A stretch of DNA of 64,000 nt from assembly GCF_030362795.1 (NCBI RefSeq), contig NZ_JAUCBM010000015.1, positions 1-64,000 on the forward strand, in the 5' to 3' direction. Under the pieces are notes generated by a model. That model searched no databases and was not told the DNA's origin. It saw nothing but the letters and a program-made list of their open reading frames with translations. Both the position numbers and the translations under genes were made by a program. Numbering within the stretch: the stretch's first letter is position 1; each line of letters begins with the position of its first letter. The DNA is from Pseudochrobactrum kiredjianiae. Lineage in GTDB: Bacteria > Pseudomonadota > Alphaproteobacteria > Rhizobiales > Rhizobiaceae. This document shows, one piece after another, positions 12,793 to 53,701 of the stretch.

Positions 12793-12830
12793 AATACTAA
12801 CTCCCGGCTTCGCGCCGATTAGCTATCAGC

Positions 12831-13397
12831 TTACTGCTTGACAGCTTCTGCATGAATTTTCAGAGTAACCATTTTTTCCATCCCTTCTTTGACAAGGAAA
12901 TCGACGCCCCATTGGGTGCGGTCGATCGTGACTTCAAAATCACCGCCACACACTTCGGCATTGAACATCGGGTTCTGATAGCAGCTGAATTTTGTTGCTT
13001 TGAGCTGTACCGGATGGGTCTGACCTTTGATTGTCAGGTTACCGTCAACGGAAACGAGTTTGTTATCAGCCACATTCCATTTGGTTGAGGCGAAATCAAT
13101 CGTCGGATATTTTGCGGCATCCAGCAAATCTGTGCTTTTCAAATGCGCATCAAAACCTTCGATACCTGTATTCAGAGTATCAACAGGAATAGAGACTTTG
13201 ACAGAACCGGTCTGCGTTTCCGGTGAATAGCTGATATCGCCTTTAATGCCGTAGAAACCGCCACTATTTGTAGAGGTGTTAAAATGGTCAATATAGAACA
13301 TTGCTTTTGTATGATCAGAATCAAGCTTGTAATCAGCTGCCTGAACCGCTGTTGCTGAAAGAAGTGAAGCGAGCAGAGGCAATATAATTTTCTTCAT
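12831..13397 (-). CDS. YceI-family periplasmic lipid-binding protein
   Basis: 188 residues, the normal length of the YceI family. Signal peptide with cleavage after ATAVQA; mature part begins ADYKLDSDHTKAMFYIDHF, the family start, and contains the characteristic DAAKYPTIDF and VDGNLTIKGQTHPV strands of the lipocalin-like beta barrel. YceI proteins bind isoprenoid chains such as polyprenyl or quinone-like molecules. Good AGGA ribosome site ahead of the ATG. It is first in a two-gene unit with the exported oxidase, so a shared periplasmic role, for instance handling of quinone or oxidant stress, is possible but unproven. Confidence 0.9.
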   Translation of the reverse strand: MKKIILPLLASLLSATAVQAADYKLDSDHTKAMFYIDHFNTSTNSGGFYGIKGDISYSPETQTGSVKVSIPVDTLNTGIEGFDAHLKSTDLLDAAKYPTIDFASTKWNVADNKLVSVDGNLTIKGQTHPVQLKATKFSCYQNPMFNAEVCGGDFEVTIDRTQWGVDFLVKEGMEKMVTLKIHAEAVKQ

Positions 13398-13644
13398 TGA
13401 AGAATTCCTATTCTGGGTATGCTTAACAGCATCAAGATGTTTTCTGCATGCAACAGAATTATCTTTTGGTTAGATACGAACAACACAAGAGACTGGAGGA
13501 ATCTGTGCTGTTGTTATGACCAGAGAATAAGACAGGTTCCCGCTATCGGGTAGATCGGATTTTAATAAGCTCTGTTCCAAAAACAGGACAATTAAGTGAA
13601 TTTAAAAAGAAAAAAGCAGTAGCGAAGGGCTAGGCGCACCAAAA

Positions 13645-14244
13645 TCAGGCAGAGAACGCGTTAAAAAGCTTCCGGATAGTCTCAAAATCATTCACAGTAT
13701 CAATATCTGCGAAGGCAGGAGCAGGCTGCTCCACAAAATCCGCCTGTGGCAGGAGGCTACGCGCCCCGCCCTCACCGGCAAGCGGCAAAGCCCTCAGATA
13801 TTCTGTACGACATAAGGCAGGCGGGCCGCGATAGTCGCCGGAAGCAGATGCGATGACCGGCGCGGCACAAAACTGAGCCGATTGCAGTAATTGCTCAATA
13901 TGCAAGCGCGGCACCAACGGCATATCCGCAAGGCAAATCAAAACCCATTCCTGGCTGATTGCGCGCAAGCCCCTATGCAAGGAACCGAGCATACCGGTCT
14001 CCACATCTTCTGTCAGCGCCAGTGTAAAACCGGCATCCGCATAGCCTTGCGTCCATGGCGCATAATCGCGGCAGGTGACAATGCGTTGCGCCCACGGAAA
14101 ACCATCCACAACCTGCAAAATATGATGTGCAACAGGCTTCCCGCCTAGCATGGCGCTCAGTTTGTCGCCATCGGCATAACGTGAACCGGCACCAGCGCCC
14201 AGCACCAGAACAGCAGTGGCAGATGCATCAGGCATGAACCGCAC
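13645..14244 (-). CDS. Molybdenum cofactor nucleotidyltransferase, MobA/MocA-like
   Basis: 199 residues of the NTP-transferase (MobA-like) fold. The nucleotide-binding loop LGAGAGSRYADGDKL near residue 15 is an LAGG-x-S-x-RMG-x-DK variant; LICLADMPLVP carries the metal-binding Asp of the family, and AYxGPPAL-like DYRGPPALCR follows. MocA transfers CMP to molybdopterin for xanthine-oxidase-family enzymes, which matches this operon containing such an enzyme. It overlaps xdhC by 17 bases and is the last gene of the Mo-hydroxylase operon. CMP rather than GMP specificity is inferred from context. Confidence 0.82.
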   Translation of the reverse strand: MRFMPDASATAVLVLGAGAGSRYADGDKLSAMLGGKPVAHHILQVVDGFPWAQRIVTCRDYAPWTQGYADAGFTLALTEDVETGMLGSLHRGLRAISQEWVLICLADMPLVPRLHIEQLLQSAQFCAAPVIASASGDYRGPPALCRTEYLRALPLAGEGGARSLLPQADFVEQPAPAFADIDTVNDFETIRKLFNAFSA

Positions 14245-15154
14245 TCCGCGCAGTATCTGCTTTCAATTTGCAGGACATAATCTCTGCCAGCACAGAAACG
14301 GCCAGTGAGCGCGCATCCCGCACAGGGCCAAACAGGCCAACCGGCGCTGAAAGACGCGCAATCTGTGCTTCAGTGAAACCGTCTTGCAGAAGCTGGCTAC
14401 GTCGCGCCTCATGCGTGCGTCTGCTGCCGAGGCAACCAATATAAAAAGCAGCGCTGTTCAGCGCCTGCTTCAATAAGGGCAGTTCTTTATCGAGATCATG
14501 CTGAAGAAACACCACAGCCGTTGCCTCATCAATATCCGCAGGCAATGCATCGCGCATGGTCTCGATATTCAGTGCAGAAGCCGCCCGTTGCAGGACTTCA
14601 CTTTCCAAACCCCGCCCTAGCAGCACAATGCGTAAAACAGGTGGCAGCACGACAGCAAAGACACCAGCCTGCCAGCCGGTTTTCAGCGCTTCAGAACAGC
14701 TCAGCATCTGTTTTTCGGGATGATATGTCAGCGCAATTGTGCGGCGTTGAGCATGGGCTTTAAGCGCAGCATCCAGTGCATCAGCATTTTTCAGCACATG
14801 AACAACCAGTGCAATGCCACCGCCACAAGGCAAAACCACGTCAAAATAGGACGATCCTTTGCCGAGCTTCACTGTTCTGTCGCGGTTTTCTGCCAGCGCC
14901 TGCACAGCCTCATGCGCAACAACACCCTCAACACAGCCGCCGGAAACCATGCCGCAATAACCGCCTGTCGCCGTTACGGCCATCATCGAGCCTAATGCAC
15001 GGGACGAGCCGCCATTGATTTCAACCAGCGTGACCAATGCGCAAGCCTCCCCCTGCCGGAGCGTATCATGGGCAAAGCGCAGGACATCAAGTGTCTGATC
15101 TGTATGAAATAAGCGATGCACATCGACTGTTTCAGGCGCGATATCATCGGTCAT
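14228..15154 (-). CDS. xdhC: XdhC/CoxI-family molybdenum cofactor maturation chaperone
   Basis: 308 residues with both family domains. The N-terminal XdhC/CoxI domain has NGGSSRALGSMMAV and GMVSGGCVEG; the C-terminal Rossmann-like domain has IVLLGRG and the late YIGCLGSRRTHEARR. XdhC proteins bind the molybdenum cofactor, help its sulfuration and insert it into xanthine-oxidase-family enzymes. Position between cytochrome c and the nucleotidyltransferase gene indicates it serves the Mo subunit encoded upstream. A terminator-like hairpin separates it from the cytochrome gene, so it may be expressed at a lower level than the structural subunits. Confidence 0.9.
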   Translation of the reverse strand: MTDDIAPETVDVHRLFHTDQTLDVLRFAHDTLRQGEACALVTLVEINGGSSRALGSMMAVTATGGYCGMVSGGCVEGVVAHEAVQALAENRDRTVKLGKGSSYFDVVLPCGGGIALVVHVLKNADALDAALKAHAQRRTIALTYHPEKQMLSCSEALKTGWQAGVFAVVLPPVLRIVLLGRGLESEVLQRAASALNIETMRDALPADIDEATAVVFLQHDLDKELPLLKQALNSAAFYIGCLGSRRTHEARRSQLLQDGFTEAQIARLSAPVGLFGPVRDARSLAVSVLAEIMSCKLKADTARSAVHA

Positions 15155-15182
15155 CGGGAATGTGCCTTATTCAAATTATCTC

Positions 15183-15216
15183 AAAAACATACCGGCGGAT
15201 TTTCACCCGCCGGTAT
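15183..15216 (-). terminator. Intra-operon intrinsic terminator (partial)
   Basis: On the minus strand a 10-bp stem (15207-15216 with 15189-15198, core ccggcgg) is followed by a T5 run. It lies between the cytochrome c gene and xdhC and could reduce read-through into the maturation genes. Confidence 0.65.
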
Positions 15217-15231
15217 CGGTAGCACGCAGAA

Positions 15232-16494
15232 TTAACTACCTGCTTTTTCAATATCTTTCACTGTGATATTGGCAGGCTGACCGCCCCATTCGGCACGCAT
15301 GTAATTGACCAGATCAGCAATCTGCTCATTGGTCAGCGCACCTTTAAAGCCAGGCATCGCCTGCATCACTTCGCCATTGGCAAGACGCTGCTCGGCAATA
15401 CCATCCTGAATGACATGGATCAGATTGCTCGGATCCGCCAGCATTGCACTGGTATTGGTGGTCATTGCCGGTGCAATATGCGGCTTACCTTCACCATCCA
15501 CGCCATGACAACCAGCACAGACAGCCATATAGGCATCACGGCCACTCTGACGTACAGCCGCATCAATCGCCACCGGCGTTTGCTGTGGTGCTTCCGGCAG
15601 TTTATCACCGGTCAGATAGGTCTGAATTGCTGCAATATCCTCATCCGTCATATATTGGGACGAATGCAGCAACACCGGATACATTTCCAGTGTCATTGTG
15701 CCCTGAGGCGACATACCGGTCTTGAGGAATTTGCGCATATCCTCAGCCGTCCAGCCACGCGATGCCAGCGCTTCAGGCTTCAGACTTGGTGCGGTGATCT
15801 TGCCGAGAATGCCGCCCTCATAGGCTGAAGCCATCTGCAAACCGCCAATCGCATTACGCGGCGTATGACATTCCTGACAATGGCCGAGAACATCCGTCAG
15901 ATAAGCACCATTCGCCACCTGTGCAGATGCATTGGCAGGCATTTGCAGTTTCGGATTGACCAAATTCCAGTAAGACAATGCCCAGCGCTGATTAAACGGG
16001 AATGGCAGCCCCACTTCCGGATTAGCGCGTTTGACCGGTTGCTGCTCCATCAAATAGGCATAAATCGCATCAGAATCTTCCGGACGGATTGTATGATACG
16101 ACACATAAGGCATGGCCGGATAAAGCCATTTGCCGTCAGCGCGAACACCATCCGCTACCGCATGATAAAATTCAGCCGATGTATAATTACCGATACCAGT
16201 TTCTTTATCCGGTGTAATATTGGTGCCATAGAGCACACCAAACGGCGTATCAATCGCCAGACCACCCGCATAAGGCGCACCATCCGGCGATTGGTGACAG
16301 GCCGCGCAATCGGCTACAGCCGCGAGGTATTTACCGCGCGTAACCAGCTTGGTTTTTTCCTCGCCGGTCGCAGCCAGACGCTGCGCGGATGCTTTATCAT
16401 CATAGGCTGATTTAACAGGCCAGAACGGTACAGAAGCTGCAACGACAGCACCCAAAACACCAAGCCTGAGAATCCATTTTACTGCTGGTTTCAT
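15232..16494 (-). CDS. Triheme c-type cytochrome subunit of periplasmic Mo-hydroxylase
   Basis: 420 residues. An N-terminal hydrophobic segment (residues about 7-27) serves as signal or anchor. Three heme-attachment motifs are seen: CAACH near residue 60, CQECH near 210, and CAGCH near 330, each with downstream Met ligand candidates. This is the architecture of the cytochrome subunit of membrane-bound alcohol, aldehyde and nicotinate dehydrogenases, which passes electrons from the 2Fe-2S subunit to the respiratory chain. The ATG overlaps the stop of the 2Fe-2S gene by four bases, tying it to the same complex. Confidence 0.92.
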   Translation of the reverse strand: MKPAVKWILRLGVLGAVVAASVPFWPVKSAYDDKASAQRLAATGEEKTKLVTRGKYLAAVADCAACHQSPDGAPYAGGLAIDTPFGVLYGTNITPDKETGIGNYTSAEFYHAVADGVRADGKWLYPAMPYVSYHTIRPEDSDAIYAYLMEQQPVKRANPEVGLPFPFNQRWALSYWNLVNPKLQMPANASAQVANGAYLTDVLGHCQECHTPRNAIGGLQMASAYEGGILGKITAPSLKPEALASRGWTAEDMRKFLKTGMSPQGTMTLEMYPVLLHSSQYMTDEDIAAIQTYLTGDKLPEAPQQTPVAIDAAVRQSGRDAYMAVCAGCHGVDGEGKPHIAPAMTTNTSAMLADPSNLIHVIQDGIAEQRLANGEVMQAMPGFKGALTNEQIADLVNYMRAEWGGQPANITVKDIEKAGS

Positions 16495-17030: not shown

Positions 17031-19783
17031 GACAATGCCTCTTTAATCTTTTCTTCCGTCAGCGGGAGTTCGCGCAGATATTTGCCAACGGCATGCGCTA
17101 CCGCATTGGCAACCGCAGGAATGGTCGGAATCTGTACGACCTCCGCAATGCCTTTCGGATGATCTTCCTGTGCTGTAACCGGCAGGATATTTGCCGTCTG
17201 CTCCCAGACAGCCACATCTTTACCGCGTGGCAGACGATAGCGGTTGAAATTCCAGTCGCCGCTGCCCGGACCATCTTCATAAAGCGGCATGCCTTCATAC
17301 AGCGCATGACCGATCGACATACCGATACCGCCCTGCAACTGACCGGACACAAATTCCGGTACCAGTACACGACCGCAATCAAGCGATGAATGATGCGACA
17401 GGATTTTCACCTCACCGGTGCCGCGATTGACGCTCACTTCAATCAGTGCCGATGCCGGTGCAAAACGTGACCAGCTGGCATTATCAACCTGCGGGTCCAT
17501 ATAATGCACATTGCTGCGCTCAATGCGCTGCCATTGCTCAGAACCGGTTTGGATAGCCAGACCATCAATCGGACGACGGGTGGTTTCGCCAAGAATATCG
17601 TAATCGGCTTCACCCCAGCCCCAGCGATCAAAGGCATGAACCATTGCGCCGGTAATGCCCTTAAGCTCATGCGCTTTGGCCGCCAGTTCTGCGAGGCTCA
17701 GTGAACGACCATCGGAAAGGACAAATTTCTCGTCTTTCCATGATGCACCGGCAGCAACTTCAACGCTCACATTCCACAGAGCCGCAGCCGCAGGAATGAT
17801 ACCGCGTTCATAAATGAGACGACCGGCTTCATGTGTGCCATGGGTAAAGTAGAATGCACTGTTCGTTGCACTCGATGCCGAAGCCATTGCCGGTGTCCAA
17901 CGTGAATCCGGTGACATCTCATCCTGATGGGCTTTATCCATCACAAACGGGCTGAGTGTGGCAAACATTTCCAGCGGCGACCAGTTAAGGGCAGCACTTT
18001 CAATCTCGTCAGCAGGTTTACCCAACCAACGGGAGCACATCAAAGCCTGTGTGCTGACCGCACCAGTGCCGATTTCTACCGCAATATGATGCAACCGGAT
18101 TTTGCCTTCCGGTGTCAGTGTAATCGCCGCTGCAACAGCTTCATTGGAGTTACCAAAGCCTTTTTTGGCAATCGCATAGCCAACACCGTATTTCAGCGCA
18201 GGGTTTTCTGCTTCGAACTCGGCTTTACGCTTCGTGCGGTTTGCCCAGACCGGATGCGCACGGTCAGCTTCGATCATCTCGCGCATACGGCACAAGCTCA
18301 GCGGGAATGCACCGGCAGAACTGCGTTCACCGTCCTGCAGAGCATTGATCAGACGCAGCTCCATAACGTCCACGCCGAGCTCTTCAGCCAGTTCTTCAAC
18401 CAGCATTTCCGTGCCGATCTGTGCTTCCAGCGAACCGAAACCACGAACAGAACCGGACATTGGTGCGCGGGAAGACTGCGCAACAGCGGCAATATCATTC
18501 TTAGGGAAGTAATAAATCCCCTGCGCAGCACCGGCAGCAACCTGTGTCACTGGTGTAGTATAATTCTGACGGCCACCGCCATCCAACTCCAGATCAGCCA
18601 CCAGAGACTGCATTTTCAGCGTCTTACGGTTGATACCGAGACGATATTTCATACGGATCGGGTGACGCTTGATTGCAGTCTGGAAATGTTCTTCACGATC
18701 AAGCGCCAAGCGCACAGGGCGACCTTCCGCAAAGAGTGCAGCTACGATACCGTAATACGGGAACGGGCTATGTTCTTTGGTGCCGTAGCCAACCGTATAG
18801 GCCGGATGGCCCTTCATCTCACGCACATCAAATGTGCTTTTCTTGAGCATCGCCGCAGTGCCGGTCATCACCTCATGCGGGCTCTGGCTCGCCATGATGA
18901 CTTCCAGCTTACCAGATTTTGCATCATACCAGCAGTTGCAATTGTCAGGCTCAAGCGCTGCCGCATCAATGAACGGCGAATAATATTCGCGCTCAATCAC
19001 ATGCCAGTCTTCCGGCGGTGTATTCAGCTCTGCGCGAATGCCTTCGGCATAGGCCATGCCGCGTTCCATCACTGCACCGGCAGCATCTGCTTTCGGCCAG
19101 TTGACATCATTCTTGTCATAACTTGCGAGAACATAACCATCATCGACCGGATTAAACAGGTCTTTTTCGGCTTTCGCGCCGCCTTCACCCTCTACACGCA
19201 CGAATCGGAAATTGGCGAGGGGTCCCTGCTCTACCGGCGCAGTCGTTTCACCATAGCGGATGATTTCATCACGCTTGGTTTTATAAATGCGCTTGGCAAC
19301 GGAGAAACGGGCAAAATCACGATAAATCAGGATTGCCAGCGGGTGACCGAGAAACAGCGGCACTTCCCCTTTAGGCAACAACATTTTCTGGCCATAAGTA
19401 TACGGATCATAGAAGTCGAGACCAGCTTTAACCGTATCTTCGGCTGTAACCAGATAATCCGGCTGCAAATCCTCACCCAGCAAGGACAAATCCAGATCCA
19501 GAAACGGCGCATCCGCGCGCATCGACCAGACGACAAAAGCATGTGCCTGCTCCTTCGGCCAGTCCGGCATATCCTTAGCACGGATATCACGGGCGAAAAC
19601 CTTGGAACCTGTTACCTTAGCCACGCCGTCAATCCGGCGCTTCAACTGCGTTGTACCTTGCGGGAGCGGCAAGTCGAGAATTTTGTTTTCAAACAATGCC
19701 GCGCGTGCTGCGCGGATCGGAAGAATAGTGACCGCTATTCCGGACGCTGTAAACTTGAGAAAGTCCCTGCGTGTCGGTGTCAT
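17027..19783 (-). CDS. Molybdopterin-binding subunit, isoquinoline oxidoreductase/aldehyde dehydrogenase-like
   Basis: About 918 residues. The start at 19783 gives a Tat signal at once (TPTRRDFLKF, hydrophobic core, ARAA), and has GGGAG nine bases upstream; an in-frame ATG at 19852 would put 23 residues before the signal. The protein matches the single-chain Mo subunits of the IorB type: a short a/b hammerhead part (GVAKVTGSKVFARDI), Mo-binding domains with SGSVRGFGSLE and the C-terminal LQGGIGMSIG region. It hydroxylates an aldehyde or N-heterocycle in the periplasm and hands electrons to the 2Fe-2S and cytochrome subunits encoded next. First gene of the operon. Substrate not deducible from sequence. 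Confidence 0.9.
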   Translation of the reverse strand: MTPTRRDFLKFTASGIAVTILPIRAARAALFENKILDLPLPQGTTQLKRRIDGVAKVTGSKVFARDIRAKDMPDWPKEQAHAFVVWSMRADAPFLDLDLSLLGEDLQPDYLVTAEDTVKAGLDFYDPYTYGQKMLLPKGEVPLFLGHPLAILIYRDFARFSVAKRIYKTKRDEIIRYGETTAPVEQGPLANFRFVRVEGEGGAKAEKDLFNPVDDGYVLASYDKNDVNWPKADAAGAVMERGMAYAEGIRAELNTPPEDWHVIEREYYSPFIDAAALEPDNCNCWYDAKSGKLEVIMASQSPHEVMTGTAAMLKKSTFDVREMKGHPAYTVGYGTKEHSPFPYYGIVAALFAEGRPVRLALDREEHFQTAIKRHPIRMKYRLGINRKTLKMQSLVADLELDGGGRQNYTTPVTQVAAGAAQGIYYFPKNDIAAVAQSSRAPMSGSVRGFGSLEAQIGTEMLVEELAEELGVDVMELRLINALQDGERSSAGAFPLSLCRMREMIEADRAHPVWANRTKRKAEFEAENPALKYGVGYAIAKKGFGNSNEAVAAAITLTPEGKIRLHHIAVEIGTGAVSTQALMCSRWLGKPADEIESAALNWSPLEMFATLSPFVMDKAHQDEMSPDSRWTPAMASASSATNSAFYFTHGTHEAGRLIYERGIIPAAAALWNVSVEVAAGASWKDEKFVLSDGRSLSLAELAAKAHELKGITGAMVHAFDRWGWGEADYDILGETTRRPIDGLAIQTGSEQWQRIERSNVHYMDPQVDNASWSRFAPASALIEVSVNRGTGEVKILSHHSSLDCGRVLVPEFVSGQLQGGIGMSIGHALYEGMPLYEDGPGSGDWNFNRYRLPRGKDVAVWEQTANILPVTAQEDHPKGIAEVVQIPTIPAVANAVAHAVGKYLRELPLTEEKIKEALS

Positions 19784-45085: not shown

Positions 45086-45727
45086 TCAGCTCTTTGCGGC
45101 CTCTGCTAAGCCTCTGCGAATACGGTTGAAAATCGTCCACAATAACAACACGATAAGCAGCGGCTGCAACCAGATCATCCATTGTGGCAGGAAACCATCA
45201 ACGGCCAGCCAGCCACCCAAAATGCCGAACAGCAGCGCTCGGTCACTCTTGCCCATCGGCCCGTCATAACGTCTTGACGCGCCGACACTTAAGCCCAGCA
45301 ATCCGACAAATTCCGTGAGCAAGGCCAGCACAATAATCAGCCCCATCCAATGCGGTTGAAATGGCGCAATCCAGAGAAACGGCATAAATAGTGCCGTATC
45401 AGAAACCAGATCGCCAAGCTCGTTGAGATAAGCGCCCAAGGCGCTTTGCTGGTTAAATTCCCGCGCCAGCATCCCGTCGATGGCATTCATCGCCATGCGG
45501 ACAAACAGCCATATGGGAACAAGCCAAAACCATGCTTTATTATCAGCGATCACTAACCAGACACCGACCAGTACAGAGATCAGCATTGCTGTAACCGTTA
45601 CCTGATTGGCAGTGATCCCGCATTGCGCCAACCGGCGGGTCAGCGGGCGCAATAAATCCTGAAAGCGGCTCTTAAGCTGATAAACAGACACGATATCTCT
45701 CACTGCAAAATCATTTTTCTTAAACAT
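45086..45727 (-). CDS. CDP-alcohol phosphatidyltransferase, YnbA-like, with Asn in two motif positions
   Basis: 213 residues, about six membrane segments. The CDP-alcohol motif D-x2-DG-x2-AR-x8-G-x3-D-x3-D is seen as NAIDGMLARE...LGAYLNELGD near residues 81-105: the second and fourth Asp are present, the first and third are Asn. YnbA of E. coli, to my recollection, shares this NAIDGMLARE pattern, so it marks a subfamily. Such enzymes join an alcohol head group to CDP-diacylglycerol. Divergent from the hydrolase-methyltransferase gene, with a gap of about 75 bp. No good ribosome site in front of the ATG; a downstream start is possible. Confidence 0.85.
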   Translation of the reverse strand: MFKKNDFAVRDIVSVYQLKSRFQDLLRPLTRRLAQCGITANQVTVTAMLISVLVGVWLVIADNKAWFWLVPIWLFVRMAMNAIDGMLAREFNQQSALGAYLNELGDLVSDTALFMPFLWIAPFQPHWMGLIIVLALLTEFVGLLGLSVGASRRYDGPMGKSDRALLFGILGGWLAVDGFLPQWMIWLQPLLIVLLLWTIFNRIRRGLAEAAKS

Positions 45728-45803
45728 CGTTTAGTCTAAATGACTTACAATAAATAGCGGGACAATACGCATATTCATTCCACGCTCTATGAAAGACAGG
45801 CCT

Positions 45804-47579
45804 ATGACTTCGGTAAAACGCGATTGCACTGAGCGGCATTTTATCAGCCATGACCGGCAGGAAATCTTTTTTCGTCACTGGCCTGCTTTGAGTGAAAAGC
45901 CCGAAGGCGCTATCATTCTGCTGCATCGCGGGCACGAACATAGCGGCCGTGTAGCGCATATTGTTGATGAGCTGGGGCTGGATAATTACAGCTTTTACGC
46001 ATGGGACGCTCGCGGTCATGGTCTCACCCAAGGGCAGCGCGGTTATTCGCCATCCTTTGCCACAACTGTACGCGATCTGGATTGCTTTGCCCGTCATATT
46101 ACCGAGACAGACGGTTTCGCTTTACAGGATATGGCGCTGATTGCACAAAGTGTGGGCGCGGTTATCGGTGCCACATGGGTGCATGATTATGCACCGCCGA
46201 TCCGCGCCATGGTACTGGCTGCACCGGCTTTTGACGTTAAACTCTATGTACCGCTGGCCAAAGAAGGCATCTGGCTCTGGCAGAAGCTCAAAGGCACATT
46301 CTTCGTCAACTCCTATGTCAAAGCCCGTTTTCTGACCCATGACAAAGAGCGGATTGAATCCTTTGAAAATGACCCGCTGATTACCCGCCCGATTGCTTCC
46401 AATATTCTGCTGGAACTCTATGAGAATGCTGTACGCATTGTCCGCGATGCCCGTGCAATCACCACACCGACACAGGTGCTGATTTCCGGTCGTGACTGGG
46501 TGGTGCGCGATACACCGCAACACCGTTTTTACGAAAATCTCGCAGGCCCTGTTAAAGAGCGTCATGTGCTCAAGGGCTTCTATCACGACACATTAGGCGA
46601 GCGTGACCGTGCCTTGGTTTTTGCAAAAATCCGGCCTTTCATTGAGCAGCAATTTGCCAAAGCACCGCAACAAAGCGCGCTGCTCAATGCCCATATTCAG
46701 GGCTATACCCGTGATGAGGCAGACCGTCTGGCTACCCCTCTGTCCATTACCAGTCCGCGCGGCTTCTATTGGGGTATGACCCGTGCTTCTATCCGTATCG
46801 GCGCGCTGTTCTCGGAAGGGTTGAAAACCGGCATCCGCACCGGTTTCGATTCCGGCTCCACTCTTGATTATGTCTACCGTAATGAGGTGAAGGGCTTAGG
46901 CCCCGGTGGCCGCTATACTGACAAGACCTTCCTCAACGCCATTGGCTGGCGCGGCATCCGCCAACGTAAACTTCATCTGGAAGAACTGATCCGGCAGGCT
47001 GTTACCCGTTTGCAGGATGACGGCAAACCGGCACGCATTCTCGACATTGCTGCCGGTCACGGACGCTATGTGCTGGATGCACTCACCACCAAAGATGATG
47101 AAATTGCCTCAGTGCGCTTGCAGGATTATTCTCCGATCAATGTGCTGGCTGGTCGTCAGTTAATCGCAGAGCGTAATCTCACAGGTAAAGCCGAGTTCCA
47201 TGAAGGTGATGCTTTCGACGGACAGGCACTTGCGGCACTCGGCAAAGATACAGAAACAGCGCCCAATCTGGCAATTGTCTCCGGCCTGTATGAATTATTT
47301 GCCGATAATGATCAAATCGCAAAATCGCTGCAAGGACTGGCACAAGCCGTGCCGAGCGGTGGCTATCTGATCTACACTAATCAACCTTGGCATCCGCAGC
47401 TGGAAATGATCGCCCGTGCGCTCACGTCTCACCGTGGCGGACAGGCATGGGTGATGCGCCGCCGCACGCAAAATGAGATGGATCAGCTGGTCGAGGCCGC
47501 AGGTTTCCGCAAGATTGAACAGCGTATCGACCAGTGGGGCATTTTCACCGTGTCTCTGGCGCAACGTATTGAGCAATAA
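45804..47579 (+). CDS. Alpha/beta hydrolase fused to SAM methyltransferase, YnbC-like
   Basis: About 591 residues. Domain 1 (to about 285) is a monoacylglycerol-lipase-type hydrolase: LLHRGHEHSGR, WDARGHGLTQG, nucleophile AQSVGAV (Ser about 116), Asp in SGRDWVV and His in FYHDTLGE. Domain 2 (from about 330) has the class I methyltransferase loop ILDIAAGHGRYVLDA near 415. The same order and length are known in E. coli YnbC (585 aa). The start at 45804 has AGG close by; an ATG at 45789 lacks one. Probably a lysophospholipase-like activity combined with head-group or acyl methylation, at the inner membrane face. First of four genes on this strand. Confidence 0.85.
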   Translation: MTSVKRDCTERHFISHDRQEIFFRHWPALSEKPEGAIILLHRGHEHSGRVAHIVDELGLDNYSFYAWDARGHGLTQGQRGYSPSFATTVRDLDCFARHITETDGFALQDMALIAQSVGAVIGATWVHDYAPPIRAMVLAAPAFDVKLYVPLAKEGIWLWQKLKGTFFVNSYVKARFLTHDKERIESFENDPLITRPIASNILLELYENAVRIVRDARAITTPTQVLISGRDWVVRDTPQHRFYENLAGPVKERHVLKGFYHDTLGERDRALVFAKIRPFIEQQFAKAPQQSALLNAHIQGYTRDEADRLATPLSITSPRGFYWGMTRASIRIGALFSEGLKTGIRTGFDSGSTLDYVYRNEVKGLGPGGRYTDKTFLNAIGWRGIRQRKLHLEELIRQAVTRLQDDGKPARILDIAAGHGRYVLDALTTKDDEIASVRLQDYSPINVLAGRQLIAERNLTGKAEFHEGDAFDGQALAALGKDTETAPNLAIVSGLYELFADNDQIAKSLQGLAQAVPSGGYLIYTNQPWHPQLEMIARALTSHRGGQAWVMRRRTQNEMDQLVEAAGFRKIEQRIDQWGIFTVSLAQRIEQ

Positions 47580-48871
47580 TGCAGCTTCAGTCGCAAGTGC
47601 ATAAAACAGATCCGGCATTGATCCGGCGGGGCATATACTTGCTGCTGCTTCTCGCCCCGCTGTTTTATGCGACTTACGGACTGGCGAACTGGCTGGCATC
47701 GCAGCGCGTTGCAGTGCCGGAGATTGTCTTTGATTGGGAAAAGCAAATCCCGTTCTGGGGTTGGACTATCATCCCCTATTGGTCGCTCAATCTGTTTTAT
47801 GCTGTCGCAGTTTTGGCCGCTACCGGCAAACAAGCACAAGACCGGCTGGTCGGCCGCTATCTCACGGCGCAATGCATTGCCTTTGTCTGTTTCATCGCTT
47901 TTCCGCTGACCATCACATGGCAGAAGCCTGTAACAACCGGCCTTTCCGGCTGGTTATTCGCCATGCTCGGCAATTTCGACCAGCCATATAATCAGGCGCC
48001 TTCCCTGCATATCGCCTTGACAATTATCATCTGGGATCATCTGCGCGGCAGAATGCCAGTGTTTTGGCGCATGATCTGGCATGGTTGGTGTTTGTTGATT
48101 GCTCTGTCCGTTCTCACCACATGGCAGCATCATTTCATTGATGTTCCGGCCGGTGCTTTGCTCGGATTGTTCGCTTTGTGGCTGTTTCCCCGTGAAGGTG
48201 TTGTCCCATGGCAGGATTATCGTATCACCCGCGACCGCAAAGCCTTGCAGCTTGCCGCTATTTACGGCGGCGCAGGTTTGCTGCTCTTTGCCCTCACATT
48301 GAACGGACAACATCCGACGATCCTGCTGCTGCTTTGGCCTGCCTTGGCTTTGCTGTTACTTGGTTTGGCCTATAGCGGTGGCGGTACAAAATTCTTTCAG
48401 AAACGCCGTGACGGTTCTGTGAGCCTTGCGTCTTTCTGGCTGTTCTTACCGCTACGTGTATTTTTCAGACTCAATCGTATCGTATGGACATGGCGCGAAC
48501 CGCCTGCGGTCAGGATCACTGAAGACCTCTATCTCGGACGTTTCCCGAAACACTCAGAAACACAGAACTATGCTTGCATCATTGATATGACGGCAGAATG
48601 TATTGCACCGTGCAACAGCAGAGCCCATTGGCAGGCTTTTCCTCTCATGGATCTCGCCAAGCCGGATTTTGCCACTCTACACGCTGCCACAAATGCCATT
48701 CATGATGCACCACGCCCGACATTGATCTGTTGCGCATTGGGCTATCAGCGCAGTGCCAATCTCATTGCCCGCTGGCTGGTTGAAAGCGGTCAAGTCACGG
48801 ATCGTCAAAAAGCGGAAGAACTGATCCGTCAAACCGGCAGACCGGTGCGCCTTTATGCAGACCATCAGTAA
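47579..48871 (+). CDS. PAP2-like membrane phosphatase fused to dual-specificity phosphatase, YnbD-like
   Basis: 430 residues, the same length as E. coli YnbD. The N-terminal two-thirds has about eight membrane segments with PAP2 motifs 2 and 3 (APSLHIA, His 144; HHFIDVPAG, His 185 and Asp 188), while motif 1 is weak. The C-terminal 120 residues are a dual-specificity phosphatase with the P-loop C-A-L-G-Y-Q-R-S (Cys 385, Arg 391) and the general acid in PLMDLAKPD. Both parts remove phosphate; the pair suggests a lipid phosphate substrate, for example a phosphatidyl-alcohol phosphate. The ATG overlaps the previous stop by one base. Confidence 0.87.
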   Translation: MQLQSQVHKTDPALIRRGIYLLLLLAPLFYATYGLANWLASQRVAVPEIVFDWEKQIPFWGWTIIPYWSLNLFYAVAVLAATGKQAQDRLVGRYLTAQCIAFVCFIAFPLTITWQKPVTTGLSGWLFAMLGNFDQPYNQAPSLHIALTIIIWDHLRGRMPVFWRMIWHGWCLLIALSVLTTWQHHFIDVPAGALLGLFALWLFPREGVVPWQDYRITRDRKALQLAAIYGGAGLLLFALTLNGQHPTILLLLWPALALLLLGLAYSGGGTKFFQKRRDGSVSLASFWLFLPLRVFFRLNRIVWTWREPPAVRITEDLYLGRFPKHSETQNYACIIDMTAECIAPCNSRAHWQAFPLMDLAKPDFATLHAATNAIHDAPRPTLICCALGYQRSANLIARWLVESGQVTDRQKAEELIRQTGRPVRLYADHQ

Positions 48872-48971
48872 AATACCGGATTGTCCCCAAACCAAGAAAT
48901 GATTGCGGAAACAGCTTTTATTCTGTTACTTGCAATAATTATTGGGTAGCAAATAAAAACGACAATCATTC

Positions 48972-49625
48972 ATGGCTGATCCGGACACACATTCACTATT
49001 ACAGATTTTCTCCGGTATGGTGCTGGCCTTTTTCTCCCGTGCCATTACCGGTGTCCGGCCGATTTGGAGCGGCACTGTCCCCTCACGTAAACAGCGTATT
49101 TATTTTGCCAATCACACCAGCCACGGCGATTTCATTCTGCTGTCCTCATCGCTGCCAATGGGCGAGCGGGCGCGAACCCGTGCCGTTGCCGGTGCGGATT
49201 ATTGGAACGGCAATCCTTTGCGCCGGTTTATTGCCACGCGGCTGCTCGGCACTGTGCTGGTGGAACGCAACTGGATCGAACGCAGTGAAGACCCGTTACT
49301 GGTGATGTTACGTGCAATCGACAGCGGCCAATCGCTGATCTTTTTCCCTGAAGGTACCCGCAACATGACGGAAGAACCGCTGCTGCGTTTTCGCGCCGGT
49401 CTTTATCATCTCGCCAAAGCGCGGCCGGATGTGGAGTTGGTGCCTTGCTGGATTGAGAATATGTCCCGTGTCTTACCAAAAGGTACATTTTTGCCGGTGC
49501 CATTATTATGCCGTGTGATTTTCGGCACCCCGCTGCAATTGCAACCGGACGAAGAGCGCAAGGCTTTTTTACACCGCGCTCAATCCGCATTGCTAACCCT
49601 CAGCCCGCAACCTCAGGGAGAATGA
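48972..49625 (+). CDS. Lysophospholipid acyltransferase family protein (PlsC-like)
   Basis: 217 residues. Catalytic HX4D motif NHTSHGDF (His 48, Asp 53), acceptor motif FFPEGTRN near 125, and a late Pro-rich motif (KGTFLPVPL). Such enzymes acylate lysophosphatidic acid or similar lysolipids to give phosphatidic acid. It lies 100 bp after the PAP2 fusion gene and one base before the CdsA-like gene, so it is probably part of the same lipid pathway. The ribosome site is weak. Confidence 0.9.
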   Translation: MADPDTHSLLQIFSGMVLAFFSRAITGVRPIWSGTVPSRKQRIYFANHTSHGDFILLSSSLPMGERARTRAVAGADYWNGNPLRRFIATRLLGTVLVERNWIERSEDPLLVMLRAIDSGQSLIFFPEGTRNMTEEPLLRFRAGLYHLAKARPDVELVPCWIENMSRVLPKGTFLPVPLLCRVIFGTPLQLQPDEERKAFLHRAQSALLTLSPQPQGE

Positions 49626-49626
49626 A

Positions 49627-50559
49627 GTGAGCGAAGAAACCAATCTTCTCCTGATCGGGCTTATCGCATTATTATCTGTGGCAAGTCTTGCAGCCGCATT
49701 GATCAGCTGGCGCAGTCCCAAACCACTTCCCTCCACACTCAGCAATATCAATGCGCGTATCCGTGCCTGGTGGATCATGATCGCCGCGATCACCATTGCT
49801 TTTCTGTTTGGTAAAGCCGGTGTGGTTATTCTGTTTGGTGTGGTCTCATTCGCAGCACTTCGGGAATATGTGACCCTCACCCATACGCATCGCAGCGATC
49901 ACTGGCTGCTGCTTGGTGCCTTTCTGATTGTCATTCCGGTGCAATATTATCTGGTCTGGGTGGAATGGTACGGGCTCTATTCCATTTTTATTCCCGTTTA
50001 TGTGTTTCTCGCCATGTCGGTGCTGACAGCGCTTTGGGGTAATACCAGCCGGTTTCTCGAGCGTATTTCCGAGCAGCAATGGGGCATCATGCTCTCGGTC
50101 TATTGCATCAGCCATGTGCCTGCGCTGGCCACATTGCATATTGAGGGTTTTGAAGGCCGACAAATGCTGCTGATCGCTTTTCTGATAGCTGTGGTGCAAG
50201 GCTGCGATGTGCTGCAATTCATCTTCGGAAAATTATTTGGCAAACACCGTATCTCACCTAAGGTCTCACCATCCAAAACATGGGAAGGTCTGATCGGTGG
50301 CGTGGCCAGCGCCTCTCTGCTCGGCGCAGCGCTGTCTTGGCTCACACCCTTCTCGCCGCTACAGGCAGGCGGTCTTGCAGCCATTGCCTGTATTATGGGC
50401 TTCTTCGGGGGTCTGGTCGCTTCCGCGATCAAGCGCGATCGTGGCGTTAAAGACTGGGGGCATATGATTGAAGGCCATGGCGGCATGATGGATCGTGCTG
50501 ACAGTCTGGTTTTTGCAGCACCGGTGTTCTTTCATCTGATCCGTTATTTCTGGACATAA
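49627..50559 (+). CDS. Phosphatidate cytidylyltransferase (CdsA/YnbB-like)
   Basis: 310 residues, about eight membrane segments. The CdsA signature is complete near residues 262-288: S-A-I-K-R-D-R-G-V-K-D-W-G then HGGMMDRAD, preceded by SPSKTWEG. The enzyme makes CDP-diacylglycerol from phosphatidic acid and CTP. It starts with GTG at 49627 behind GGGAG. As the housekeeping CdsA is normally next to frr and uppS, this is likely a second, dedicated copy supplying the YnbA-like transferase. Confidence 0.92.
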   Translation: MSEETNLLLIGLIALLSVASLAAALISWRSPKPLPSTLSNINARIRAWWIMIAAITIAFLFGKAGVVILFGVVSFAALREYVTLTHTHRSDHWLLLGAFLIVIPVQYYLVWVEWYGLYSIFIPVYVFLAMSVLTALWGNTSRFLERISEQQWGIMLSVYCISHVPALATLHIEGFEGRQMLLIAFLIAVVQGCDVLQFIFGKLFGKHRISPKVSPSKTWEGLIGGVASASLLGAALSWLTPFSPLQAGGLAAIACIMGFFGGLVASAIKRDRGVKDWGHMIEGHGGMMDRADSLVFAAPVFFHLIRYFWT

Positions 50560-52036: not shown

Positions 52037-53701
52037 TCAGGTGATTTCAATATGCGGTTTCAATGGCATATCATCATGCAAGGGTACGGTCTGGCGCTCG
52101 ATCATGCGATGGACACGCGGCTTTTCCGGCCCTTTATGCAGTGACAGCAATTTCTCTGATACGGCAGCATCCGCATAGGTGCGGCGCTGATTATGGCGCA
52201 CATATTCCACCCATGTCGGCACATGATAGGTTTCTGTCCAGATATCGGGATTTTCCAGATCGCGCAGCAATGCCCATTGTTTTGCACCATCGCGGATGCG
52301 GATGCGCCGACGGGCAGCCATTGCTTCCAGAAAGGCATGCACATTCGGCTGCTCAATATGATAATCCACCATCACCATAATCGGGCCACTGCGCGGACGA
52401 ATGTCCAGACGCAGCTCCGGCTCGGCAAATGAGTTGAGCGGATCAAGATTGAGCTTGTCAAATTCCGGTAGCTTAAAGACCAGCCCGACCAGCGCACCGC
52501 CAACCAGCGTGAAAGCTGCAACACTCAGTGCTGTTTCAGGGCCATAGCCATCTGCCACGGTGCCCCATAGCCAGCTGCCAGCCGCCATGCCACCAAATGT
52601 AGCGGTCTGATAAAGTGCCAATGCGCGTCCCACCACCCAACGCGGCGTGGACAATTGCACGGTAACATTGAACAGCGACAAGGCCAGCACCCATGAAGCA
52701 CCGGCAGGCAACAGCAACAAGCAGCTTAAAATAACCGAGTGGCTATAGGACAGCAGATAAACACTGATACCAAAGGCAATAAATGCACCACGGACGATCG
52801 TTTCATTGGCAAATTTCTCGCGCAGCTCACCGGAAGTGAAAGCACCGGCAATCGCACCAAGGCCAAAAGCGCCAAGCATAATACCATAGGTCAGCGCAGT
52901 CCCCTGCACCAAATCACGGGCGACCAGCGGCAGCAGTGCCAGCACAACTATCGCCGACAGACCGAACAGGAAGCCGCGAAACATCACCTTAATCAGGTTT
53001 GGCGACATTGAAACATAGCGCAATCCGGCAGAAACGGCACGACCGAATGTCTCACGCGGTAGTGTAGATTTTACAACCTGCGGCTTCCAGCGCAGCAATG
53101 CAATAATCAGCGGAATATAGCTGACAGCATTGATAATAAACGCAAAAGCCGCACCGGCAACAGCCACGATAAAACCACCAATGGCGGGGCCGATACTGCG
53201 CATGGCATTGAAGCTCATGCTGTTGAGTGCCACCGCCCCCGGCAAATCGGAGCGCGGTACAATATCGCCCATCGAGGCTTGCCATGACGGGTTGTGCAGA
53301 GCGCCGCCACAACCGATCAGAAAGGTGAAGCTCAGCAACAGCCATGGTGTGAGCCAGCCCATATAGCCGAAAATCGCCAGCATCAGTGATACCAGCAGCA
53401 TCATGAACTGTGCAATCAGCATGATACGGCGGCGATCAAAATTATCGGCCAGCGCACCGGCAAACAGAGAAAAGAACATCACCGGCAAAGTGGTGGAAGC
53501 CTGCACCAGCGCCACCATATTGGAGGATTGCGCAATGGTGGTCATCATCCAGCCTGCGCCCACCGTCTGGATCAGCCCGCCCAAGTTAGATGCAAGCGTT
53601 GCGGTCCATAAAGAACGAAAAGCTTTATGTTTAAACGGGGCTAAAGGCGATACACTTTGCGACACCGCAGTATTTCCTATCCGAAGCAGAAGCTCCATCA
53701 T
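52037..53701 (-). CDS. MFS_3-type transporter (EntS-like) with C-terminal extension
   Basis: 554 residues. Twelve membrane segments in the first 410, with FRSLWTATLASNLGGLIQTVGAGWMM at the start, quoted around SNLGGLIQTVG, and ALADNFDRRRIML as the loop 2-3 motif. The last 130 residues are soluble (PIMVMVDYHIEQPNVHAFLE, then RRIRIRDGAKQWALLRD, WVEYVRHNQRR) and match the C-terminal domain common in this branch. EntS exports enterobactin; members of this branch are often mere predicted exporters. 209 bp downstream of a TonB-dependent receptor gene, suggesting a link to iron or heme, but a terminator separates them. Confidence 0.85.
   Translation of the reverse strand: MMELLLRIGNTAVSQSVSPLAPFKHKAFRSLWTATLASNLGGLIQTVGAGWMMTTIAQSSNMVALVQASTTLPVMFFSLFAGALADNFDRRRIMLIAQFMMLLVSLMLAIFGYMGWLTPWLLLSFTFLIGCGGALHNPSWQASMGDIVPRSDLPGAVALNSMSFNAMRSIGPAIGGFIVAVAGAAFAFIINAVSYIPLIIALLRWKPQVVKSTLPRETFGRAVSAGLRYVSMSPNLIKVMFRGFLFGLSAIVVLALLPLVARDLVQGTALTYGIMLGAFGLGAIAGAFTSGELREKFANETIVRGAFIAFGISVYLLSYSHSVILSCLLLLPAGASWVLALSLFNVTVQLSTPRWVVGRALALYQTATFGGMAAGSWLWGTVADGYGPETALSVAAFTLVGGALVGLVFKLPEFDKLNLDPLNSFAEPELRLDIRPRSGPIMVMVDYHIEQPNVHAFLEAMAARRRIRIRDGAKQWALLRDLENPDIWTETYHVPTWVEYVRHNQRRTYADAAVSEKLLSLHKGPEKPRVHRMIERQTVPLHDDMPLKPHIEIT

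Follow-up and report, generated by a model that had tools for sequence, protein, structure and literature searches.

A five-gene locus of Pseudochrobactrum kiredjianiae related to ynbABCD and its possible role in a phospholipid branch

What does a bacterial gene cluster with homologues of Escherichia coli ynbA, ynbB, ynbC and ynbD make or modify? Few cells have been studied as thoroughly as E. coli K-12. A search of open-licence papers turned up no role for the ynbABCD set as a whole, as far as the accessible parts of PMC6362211, PMC7413402, PMC4634129, PMC6506517, PMC9246714, PMC8593681, PMC2435150, PMC13313352, PMC9491525 and PMC12221286 extend. The same question is raised by Pseudochrobactrum kiredjianiae, from which a window (the whole stretch of DNA that was analyzed) of 64,000 nucleotides was taken.

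Gene content and comparison with E. coli

An original prediction, made from the letters of the window, had placed a five-gene membrane-lipid locus at positions 45086-50559, and all five open reading frames were found there. The locus has the following parts:

45086..45727, minus strand: YnbA homologue, 213 aa; CDP-alcohol phosphotransferase whose signature is the variant NxxDGxxARx8GxxxNxxxD, D1 and D3 being Asn
45789..47579, plus strand: YnbC homologue, 596 aa; monoacylglycerol-lipase-like hydrolase (37-273) and, fused to it, a Methyltransf_20 domain (281-593)
47579..48871, plus strand: YnbD homologue, 430 aa; PAP2-fold membrane domain (about 1-205), two more helices and a dual-specificity-type phosphatase domain (about 306-430)
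48872..48971, no strand: gap of 100 bp; in most relatives the site of gene X, a membrane protein of about 130-155 aa
48972..49625, plus strand: PlsC-like 1-acylglycerol-3-phosphate acyltransferase, 217 aa; NHxSxxD and FPEGTR intact
49627..50559, plus strand: YnbB homologue, 310 aa, GTG start; CdsA paralogue (phosphatidate cytidylyltransferase type) with KRD...KDxG...GHGGxxDR intact

BLASTP against the four Ynb proteins of K-12 MG1655 (from NC_000913.3) bore out the assignment of four of the proteins to YnbA (48% identity over 203 columns), YnbB (39%, 299 columns), YnbC (54%, 579 columns) and YnbD (35%, 390 columns); together with Pfam it places all four families, clustered, at the locus. The PlsC-like acyltransferase had no match among the four E. 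coli proteins. When the locus was compared with E. coli by megablast there was no match. A more distant search, made with the YnbC-YnbD stretch, gave matches in 4555 of 5426 E. coli genomes; these covered the query at most in part, and the ten listed all lay on ynbC.

The two loci resemble each other in that four homologous proteins of similar lengths are clustered, but their layouts differ. The K-12 locus has all four genes co-directional in the order A-B-C-D and contains neither a PlsC-like gene nor gene X; in Pseudochrobactrum the YnbA gene is divergent, the PlsC gene lies between those of YnbD and YnbB, and YnbB comes last. The comparison suggests that ynbABCD of K-12 may be a reduced form of a larger kit. 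It also names a missing partner (PlsC), a sixth gene and one enzyme with an altered active site of a kind called 'absolutely conserved'.

Distribution of the genes and their neighbors

A scan confirmed at least 502 relatives of YnbC, and 80 of these were kept to compare loci; the whole set is held by 60 of the 80, which is more than expected by chance. In a sample of 398 genomes from the phylum, YnbC occurs in 27 (about 7%). YnbA is present in all 27 and a full-length YnbD in 26, and no full-length YnbD was found in this sample outside the YnbC genomes. Independent occurrence of the families had been named as a result that would refute the original prediction. In these 398 genomes a full-length YnbD was seen with YnbC and nowhere else, and YnbC was never seen without YnbA (both confined to YnbA genomes), whereas the bare, adjacent triad YnbA-YnbB-PlsC also occurs in 8 of the 9 sampled genomes with YnbA and without YnbC. 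Since the triad occurs without YnbC and YnbD, the set consists of two modules and is not one indivisible pathway. The PlsC-like gene had been described as an addition to the group. Judged by these gene neighborhoods it is a regular member and part of the core; the K-12 locus has no such gene. YnbC, YnbD and gene X are the accessory half.

Among the loci examined, 13 had no YnbB and PlsC nearby; 11 of these are named loci and two come from the phylum sample. In three of three genomes tested in which a YnbA-C-D-X cassette was without PlsC-YnbB in the fetched flank, an adjacent PlsC-YnbB pair was located elsewhere in the genome, in one of them adjoining a sister transferase. One genome (G560) gave no PlsC match at all. 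In a class sample of 289 genomes, PF12147 matched nine, five of them strongly and four partially at 19-25 bits; one of the five strong matches (G237) is a methyltransferase only.

Gene X, which encodes a small membrane protein, is present in most relatives of the locus. It was not found in the Pseudochrobactrum genome by a search that recovered it in three of three positive controls, and the three X proteins searched matched no Pfam family. Further neighbors were sought by clustering the open reading frames of 84 loci and the window. Beyond the six genes, the 45 clusters listed comprise, by coordinates and by eye, only frames that overlap the six genes and clusters of close relatives, so that no gene for head-group synthesis was found among them; the widest extra cluster listed is transporter-like and present in 26 loci. 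Two single neighbors were also recorded: an MFS-acyltransferase-AMP-binding fusion near the L021 cassette, and a YdbH-type phospholipid-transport gene near the triad in G628.

Active sites and predicted folds

The motifs of three enzymes are conserved. YnbC matches Hydrolase_4 (1.8e-64) and Methyltransf_20 (8.5e-144) in Pfam, and Ser121, Asp236 and His266 are kept in all rows with letters. The PlsC-like protein matches Acyltransferase (2e-17) and scores 46.8 bits with TIGR00530, below the cut-off of 103; the N, H and D of NHx4D are present in 69 of 70 rows (one gap), the P, E, G, T and R of FPEGTR in all 70. YnbB matches CTP_transf_1 (PF01148; 1e-67, 229 bits against a cut-off of 24), and its K, R, D, K, D and G as well as GHGG and DR are each found in 72 of 72 rows.

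YnbA is recognized by CDP-OH_P_transf (PF01066; 3.7e-12, 47.3 bits against a curated cut-off of 22). The eight residues of the CDP-alcohol phosphotransferase signature, D1xxD2G1xxAR...G2xxxD3xxxD4, are called absolutely conserved in the accessible part of PMC4634129. Of the four metal-ligand Asp, D1 and D3 are replaced by Asn in 85 of 86 aligned rows of YnbA; the sole exception (L094) is a gene split over two frames. Because of Asn at these two positions YnbA is, by its sequence, a family homologue with a variant signature, and the departure means that its chemistry may differ. A sister family of CDP-alcohol transferases has the same Asn/Asn signature in 13 of 15 control loci, and in 7 of the 8 loci read it has YnbB-type and PlsC-type genes nearby. 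In a tree of 37 CDP-alcohol transferases, E. coli YnbA groups with YnbA of G628 (support 100/100). The deeper branching of this tree is too weakly resolved (17 of 34 inner branches open, with long branches that meet) to decide whether the Asn/Asn type is one clade, and it was not used for that purpose.

The closest solved structures to YnbA by sequence are phosphatidylinositol-phosphate (PIP) synthases. The nearest curated models (NCBIfam) are archaetidylinositol-P synthase, with 75.6 bits against a cut-off of 180, and PIP synthase, with 54.7 against 170, both well below. The Arg pair that binds the acceptor phosphate in PIP synthase (R155 and R195 in MtPIPS, R153 and R191 in RsPIPS) corresponds by alignment and spacing to Arg163 (86 of 86 rows) and Arg202 (85 of 86) of YnbA, with the R202 half less sure, since it is covered in the RsPIPS alignments only and matched by spacing. 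YnbA thus keeps the Arg pair of MtPIPS and RsPIPS but differs from them in Asn at D1 and D3 and in its score with the PIP synthase model. Inositol lipids from de novo synthesis were dropped as a candidate product: inositol-phosphate synthase (PF07994) had no match in the Pseudochrobactrum genome, while 5 of 14 control genomes matched, which makes de novo inositol an improbable head group.

YnbD had been predicted to be a double phosphatase, which is doubtful for its membrane half. Pfam scores for both halves are below the curated cut-offs (PAP2_3, 25.0 bits against 27; DSPc, 24.3 against 33.5). The Cx5R motif of the phosphatase half (C385, R391) is intact in 79 of 79 rows reaching the site, the other four rows being shortened, and the catalytic PAP2 residues S142 and H144 (C2) and H184 and D188 (C3) are each present in 83 of 83. 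In PgpB, variants of the C2 Gly (G162) and the C3 Arg (R201) lost function or were weakened, according to the accessible part of PMC7413402. The C2 Gly position in YnbD is Leu in 83 of 83 rows; the C3 Arg position is Val in 81 of 83, with Ile and Thr in the others.

The best structural matches to the membrane half are SMSr, IPC synthase and Aur1 (Z 13.2, 13.1 and 12.5 over 195, 190 and 202 residues), with the phosphatase LpxE close behind (Z 12.0 over 148); the structure tool warns that Z below about 13 can reflect a common helical arrangement. Identity to the three transferases is 10-13%, and the YnbD domain differs from them in its fusion to a phosphatase. With Foldseek the best match was SMSr (E 1.7e-3), none reaching E 0.001, and a profile search of PDB sequences gave nothing significant for this domain (best, phospholipid phosphatase 1, E 0.09). 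The membrane half therefore appears, in predicted structure, to resemble sphingolipid head-group transferases at least as much as any phosphatase, narrowly ahead of LpxE; families outside the listed structure matches are not counted as excluded. The other half matches dual-specificity phosphatases with Z up to 15.7.

A proposed phospholipid branch and alternatives to it

A membrane-lipid pathway, as originally predicted, continues to be the likeliest reading of the locus, and both the homologies and the co-occurrence across genomes agree with it. We propose, with a probability of roughly 0.6, that the locus is a dedicated phospholipid branch of six steps. The PlsC-like enzyme would acylate lysophosphatidate to phosphatidate, and YnbB would turn this into CDP-diacylglycerol, or into a closely similar CDP-lipid, set aside for the branch. 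At the cytoplasmic face a phosphorylated polyol would then receive the phosphatidyl group through YnbA, and a phosphatidyl-polyol-phosphate would result. The terminal phosphate would be removed by the cytoplasmic dual-specificity-type phosphatase domain of YnbD, and the periplasm-facing PAP2-fold domain, of the sphingomyelin-synthase/Aur1 type, would pass the phospho-head group to another lipid with release of diacylglycerol. Finally, YnbC would hydrolyze an acyl ester and methylate a product. The analysis shows which genes are present, how well they and their motifs are conserved, that they are inherited together and which folds are predicted; all of the reactions and their sidedness we infer.

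The first three steps, taken as a unit of PlsC, YnbB and YnbA, are the firmest part and appear probable. Removal of the phosphate and head-group transfer by YnbD is a tentative assignment, with odds a little under even, and the existence of the triad without YnbD means that dephosphorylation is not always coupled. Hydrolysis and methylation by YnbC is a doubtful last step.

In favor of the branch are the adjacent triad, the sister family with similar neighbors, the PlsC-YnbB pairs located elsewhere in three genomes, the resemblance of YnbA to PIP synthases with the Arg pair, the confinement of YnbC and full-length YnbD to YnbA genomes, and the fold matches of both halves of YnbD. Against it count the altered YnbA signature, the closeness of LpxE among the structure matches, the 13 loci with no YnbB and PlsC nearby, and G560. 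Published results on the E. coli proteins also speak against it: YnbB, even overproduced, did not rescue a cdsA knockout (data not shown in that paper), and a ynbB knockout grew normally (accessible part of PMC6362211), while YnbD failed to complement mutants in undecaprenyl-pyrophosphate phosphatase as well as in PGP phosphatase (accessible part of PMC7413402).

The same trio of CDP-alcohol phosphotransferase, head-group phosphatase and AUR1-like transferase is reported for the inositol-lipid cluster BT_1522-BT_1526 of Bacteroides thetaiotaomicron (accessible part of PMC9246714). That cluster has a separate PgpA-like phosphatase, an inositol-phosphate synthase and, in BT_1523, the canonical Asp motif, whereas Pseudochrobactrum has a fused dual-specificity-type phosphatase, no inositol-phosphate synthase found in its genome, and PlsC-type, CdsA-type and hydrolase/methyltransferase genes in the locus.

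A wider and rather speculative extension is that the Asn/Asn transferases (YnbA and its sister), YnbB-class CdsA paralogues and PlsC are co-inherited and make an undescribed phospholipid from a donor other than bulk CDP-DAG. YnbD would work like sphingomyelin synthase and hand the head group on to a second lipid, and the genes would have spread horizontally in Pseudomonadota and perhaps Acidobacteria, the K-12 copy being reduced. If the proposed branch exists, about 7% of the genomes in the phylum sample carry a phospholipid route that has gone unnoticed, and a transferase of the sphingolipid head-group kind occurs in a form fused to a phosphatase.

Four other explanations were weighed. The locus might serve lipid turnover, with YnbC and YnbD stripping acyl chains and head groups from damaged lipids and PlsC, YnbB and YnbA rebuilding ordinary phospholipids. 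The YnbC hydrolase is indeed nearest to monoacylglycerol lipases and weakly matches lysophospholipase L2 (34 vs 362 bits), and the fusion near the L021 cassette and the YdbH-type gene near the G628 triad would fit as well. However, recycling would not call for an extra CDP-alcohol transferase whose active site is altered, and we consider turnover unlikely.

A second phosphatidylglycerol pathway would have YnbA as PGP synthase and the YnbD phosphatase domain as PGP phosphatase. PTPMT1, a PGP phosphatase, shares its fold and Cx5R with YnbD, as do other dual-specificity phosphatases, and is among the fold matches (3rgq, Z 14.3), although it ranks 32 among the matches listed, many of them at similar Z. 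PGP synthase also uses a phosphorylated acceptor. On the other side, YnbA is far below the pgsA model (23.4 vs 109.1 bits), and a PgsA-like paralogue encoded in the same genome carries the canonical Asp signature, with other residues at its acceptor side. The PGP phosphatase mutant was not rescued by E. coli YnbD (accessible part of PMC7413402). We consider this pathway improbable.

Lower still stands the supply of an MPIase-type glycolipid, in which YnbB would make CDP-DAG and GlcNAc-PP-DAG like CdsA and the other proteins would modify or recycle the pyrophospholipid. In the accessible part of PMC6362211, overproduction of E. coli YnbB raised MPIase and its authors suggested a backup role, but in a ynbB knockout MPIase did not change significantly. 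This explanation also does not account for YnbB-type genes beside a CDP-alcohol transferase and PlsC in many genomes.

Least probable is a regulatory locus in which YnbA, a CDP-alcohol transferase homologue with no catalytic activity left, binds a nucleotide-lipid: the two Asn residues would fit, but a pseudo-enzyme is expected to drift, whereas D2, D4, the Gly, Ala and Arg of the signature and the stretch RxYxGPxGKSDRA are invariant or nearly so over the 86 rows, and two transferase families retain their link to YnbB- and PlsC-type genes.

The locus and its two-part gene set

The five open reading frames at 45086-50559 lie exactly where they had been predicted. They encode YnbA (a CDP-alcohol transferase), YnbC (hydrolase plus methyltransferase), YnbD (PAP2-fold plus dual-specificity-type phosphatase), a PlsC-like acyltransferase and YnbB (CdsA-type). 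ynbA is divergent and the other four genes are co-directional; the ynbC stop and the ynbD start overlap by 1 base, and gaps of 100 bp and 1 base separate ynbD from the PlsC gene and the latter from ynbB. Identities to the E. coli K-12 proteins (BLASTP) are 48% (A), 39% (B), 54% (C) and 35% (D). The YnbC of Pseudochrobactrum asaccharolyticum DSM 25619 shares 98% identity with the one here, which places the host in Pseudochrobactrum or near it. Elsewhere the host genome (4.46 Mb, 45 contigs) contains three further CDP-alcohol transferases, one CdsA-type gene and two PlsC-family genes; hence the ynb genes come on top of those for the bulk pathway. A 554-aa MFS-like protein (judged by eye), apparently with a long C-terminal extension, is encoded at 52037-53701.

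The gene set is real, widely shared and composed of two parts. When named genomes were scanned with a YnbC alignment of five rows, at least 502 relatives were confirmed, of which the best 80 were kept with flanks of up to 10 kb. Judged by their record titles, these 80 come mainly from Rhizobium, Mesorhizobium, Shinella, Brucella/Ochrobactrum and Phyllobacterium, followed by Variovorax, Cupriavidus, Aquabacterium, Reyranella, Labrys and others, plus two MAGs labelled Acidobacteria. According to profile HMMs, 60 of the best 80 loci hold YnbA, YnbB, PlsC, both YnbC domains, YnbD and a sixth gene, X. L032 and a few others among them have PlsC and YnbB about 8 kb away. The incomplete loci lack only YnbB and PlsC (11), only X (4), YnbB, PlsC and X (3), YnbD and X (1) or PlsC (1). 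L093 carries a partial second YnbB-like stretch (18437-18856) about 3 kb past a complete locus.

Gene X, an ORF of about 130-155 aa between ynbD and the PlsC gene in most relatives, encodes a small membrane protein with no Pfam match. It is present in 72 of the 75 loci that have YnbD and enough flank. Four loci without it (L040, L083, L087, L094) are short contigs ending in or just after ynbD; L048 also lacks YnbD, while L022, L023 and L090 have YnbD without X. In genome G472, X still follows ynbD, though the two are about 40 kb from YnbA-YnbC-PlsC-YnbB. An X profile that matched three of three positive-control genomes found no X in the host genome, and the window has the 100-bp gap instead. 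The L023 record (JAHREI010000008.1), labelled Bacillus subtilis SK6B4, looks mislabelled or contaminated, with 97% YnbC identity and the Pseudochrobactrum gene order.

The original prediction proposed co-occurrence of the families as a check, and this was borne out in 398 genomes of the host phylum. The sample was searched three times, with matching genome handles among those listed. YnbC (PF12147) occurred in 27 genomes (13 of 213 genera), always with YnbA, which was found in 36 genomes at E<1e-60 (53 match at 1e-10). Full-length YnbD was confined to YnbC genomes (26; the sole one without it is G560). Fisher exact tests, uncorrected for kinship, gave p = 1.6e-34 for YnbC with YnbA and p = 6e-40 for YnbC with YnbD; per genus, YnbC was accompanied by A in 13/13 and by D in 12/13. 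Taken alone, the C-terminal half of YnbD matches proteins of about 540-570 aa in other genomes of the sample, and its membrane half has matches in a few. G184 and G472 have YnbA-YnbC-PlsC-YnbB without YnbD alongside.

Nine genomes have YnbA without YnbC. In eight of them YnbA, YnbB and PlsC are adjacent, and the 9-20 kb read around these eight triads contained no YnbC, YnbD or X. The view that PlsC had been added to an ynbABCD group is therefore wrong. The ninth genome (L193, G383) has a decayed triad at 9201-9931, with an internal stop in YnbA, a partial YnbB and no PlsC match. A tenth, weaker YnbA match (G552) is solitary and its motif is degenerate.

The altered transferase and its recurrent partners

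The CDP-alcohol transferase signature D1xxD2G1xxAR...G2xxxD3xxxD4 is described, in the available text of two studies, as absolutely conserved; its Asp residues bind metal and D4 is the presumed base (PMC4634129, PMC6506517). YnbA has Asn in place of both D1 and D3 in 85 of 86 aligned rows, E. coli included, and the one row that departs from this, L094, comes from a frame-split gene. At D2, 85 rows have Asp and one has a gap; at D4 all 86 have Asp. Nine more YnbA proteins from the triad and G560 loci show the same two Asn. The PgsA-like and PssA-like paralogues of the host (names assigned here) have the canonical Asp, and inspection by eye shows Asp at the same two positions in the third. Arg163 (86/86 rows) and Arg202 (85/86) correspond, by alignment and spacing, to the Arg pair of PIP synthase that binds the acceptor phosphate, so YnbA likely uses a phosphorylated acceptor. 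The search for inositol-phosphate synthase (PF07994) gave no match in the host genome, and E. coli was not among the matching control genomes.

As a control set, 15 weaker YnbA matches were fetched. Two (L241, L243) have canonical Asp; the other 13 form a second family with the motif NLLDGMVAxEGGK...GxxxN[ED]xPD or near it, in which D1 and D3 are once more Asn; YnbA is therefore not alone in having this change. Seven of eight sister-family loci (16 kb each) also contain a YnbB-type gene (312-486 bits) and a PlsC-type gene (153-309 bits); the 16 kb read of L245 has neither. Thus PlsC, YnbB and an Asn/Asn transferase are a recurrent triad in two versions, and we regard this recurrence as the best indication that they act in sequence.

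Some triad loci encode further membrane proteins. L249 has an apparent one of 132 aa (7340-7738) between YnbB and the sister transferase. In L195 a VTT-domain-like (DedA-like) protein (861-1397; VTT match below the curated cut-off) follows PlsC, as does a similar protein without a VTT match in L189 (10035-10715).

G322 and G519 of the phylum sample have YnbA, YnbC, YnbD and X without adjacent YnbB and PlsC. In both, and in the Rhizobium aethiopicum genome of L025, the one examined of 11 such named loci, YnbB- and PlsC-type genes are paired elsewhere (identity 52-54% and 44-45%); in G322 the distant pair adjoins a sister CDP-alcohol transferase. G560 has YnbB elsewhere in its genome but no PlsC match at 1e-3.

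Predicted chemistry of the remaining enzymes

AlphaFold2 gave confident models of YnbD (pLDDT 89.7; membrane half alone 89.3). The C-terminal half matches dual-specificity phosphatases, including PTPMT1 (Z 14.3), with a top Z of 15.7. The membrane half is closest to SMSr (Z 13.2, 195 residues), an IPC synthase (13.1, 190) and Aur1 (12.5, 202), followed by LpxE (12.0, 148), PgpB (10.6 and 8.4) and phospholipid phosphatase 1 (9.7). The ranking is narrow: matches that differ by no more than 1 Z count as ties, and the best Foldseek E is only 1.7e-3. Its nucleophile and relay residues are invariant. The PgpB G162 position (motif C2) is Leu in 83/83 and the R201 position (C3) is Val in 81/83; these motifs agree with the transferase-side matches. 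The available text of one study reports that E. coli YnbD did not rescue undecaprenyl-pyrophosphate or PGP phosphatase mutants (PMC7413402), so a head-group transferase is a better fit than a general phosphatase. YnbD is probably not the double phosphatase initially proposed. From helix order and, weakly, charges, we infer a periplasmic membrane active site and a cytoplasmic phosphatase domain.

The YnbC hydrolase domain is closest to monoacylglycerol lipases (1.1e-21), and Ser121, Asp236 and His266, its putative catalytic triad by homology, are kept in all rows with letters. Apart from one match at 4e-4, no solved relative of the methyltransferase was informative. In L021 this domain stands alone beside YnbA, YnbB and PlsC, with one confirmed hydrolase gene and a second, similar by eye, on the opposite strand. 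A few kb from that cassette, 12648-16085 encodes a 1146-aa MFS, acyltransferase and AMP-binding fusion, which we take to be LplT/Aas-like.

PlsC and YnbB retain their motifs. Overproduced E. coli YnbB raised MPIase and did not replace CdsA, as far as the available text goes (PMC6362211). This failure, together with the coupling to an altered transferase, allows a donor product other than ordinary CDP-DAG.

Relation to known systems and the enteric site

The closest worked-out system in the available literature is Bacteroides BT_1522-1526, where PIP is the product of a CDP-alcohol transferase, PI that of a phosphatase and phosphoinositol dihydroceramide that of an AUR1 homologue (PMC9246714). 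By fold or family, the ynb set covers these three activities too, two of them fused in YnbD. However, its phosphatase is different, it lacks an inositol-phosphate synthase, its signature is altered and it has PlsC, CdsA-type and YnbC genes in addition; it therefore falls outside that system. There is a strong case that the ynb set is a dedicated phospholipid branch, whose individual reactions are predictions. The outline of the original prediction, a real set and a lipid locus, stands, apart from its points on PlsC and, probably, YnbD.

A screen in E. coli yielded five disruptants, one of them with a transposon in ynbC; in this mutant an intron protein was delocalised and polyphosphate built up. 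The authors suggest that cell stress may be responsible and point out that polar effects could play a part (PMC2435150). A persistence study includes ynbC in a table of mutated, up-regulated genes (PMC13313352). In the available text, neither record points to a particular lipid.

The E. coli K-12 set is placed between ydbD and azoR-hrpA, and two further strains have the same arrangement. In G628 (L197, 8306-13702; called enteric from gene order) a triad is flanked by a ydbH-type gene (PF11739, 913 bits) on one side and by azoR- and hrpA-like genes on the other; a GFA-family gene separates azoR from PlsC, and azoR, hrpA and a ydbL-like gene were named by eye. PF11739 is described as 'intermembrane phospholipid transport', which raises the question of whether the triad's lipid is a cargo of the nearby transport system. 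In E. coli O18ac:H14 873.10 (L017, 4650-8947) ynbCD adjoins ydbH-ynbE-ydbL, and an IS1-like element lies between ydbL and ynbC, at the expected place of ynbA and ynbB, which are not annotated. E. coli YnbA groups with G628 YnbA in a tree of CDP-alcohol transferases. Given the like flanks and the position of ynbCD beside ydbH-ynbE-ydbL, the site of the triad appears to be the one that the set takes up in E. coli.
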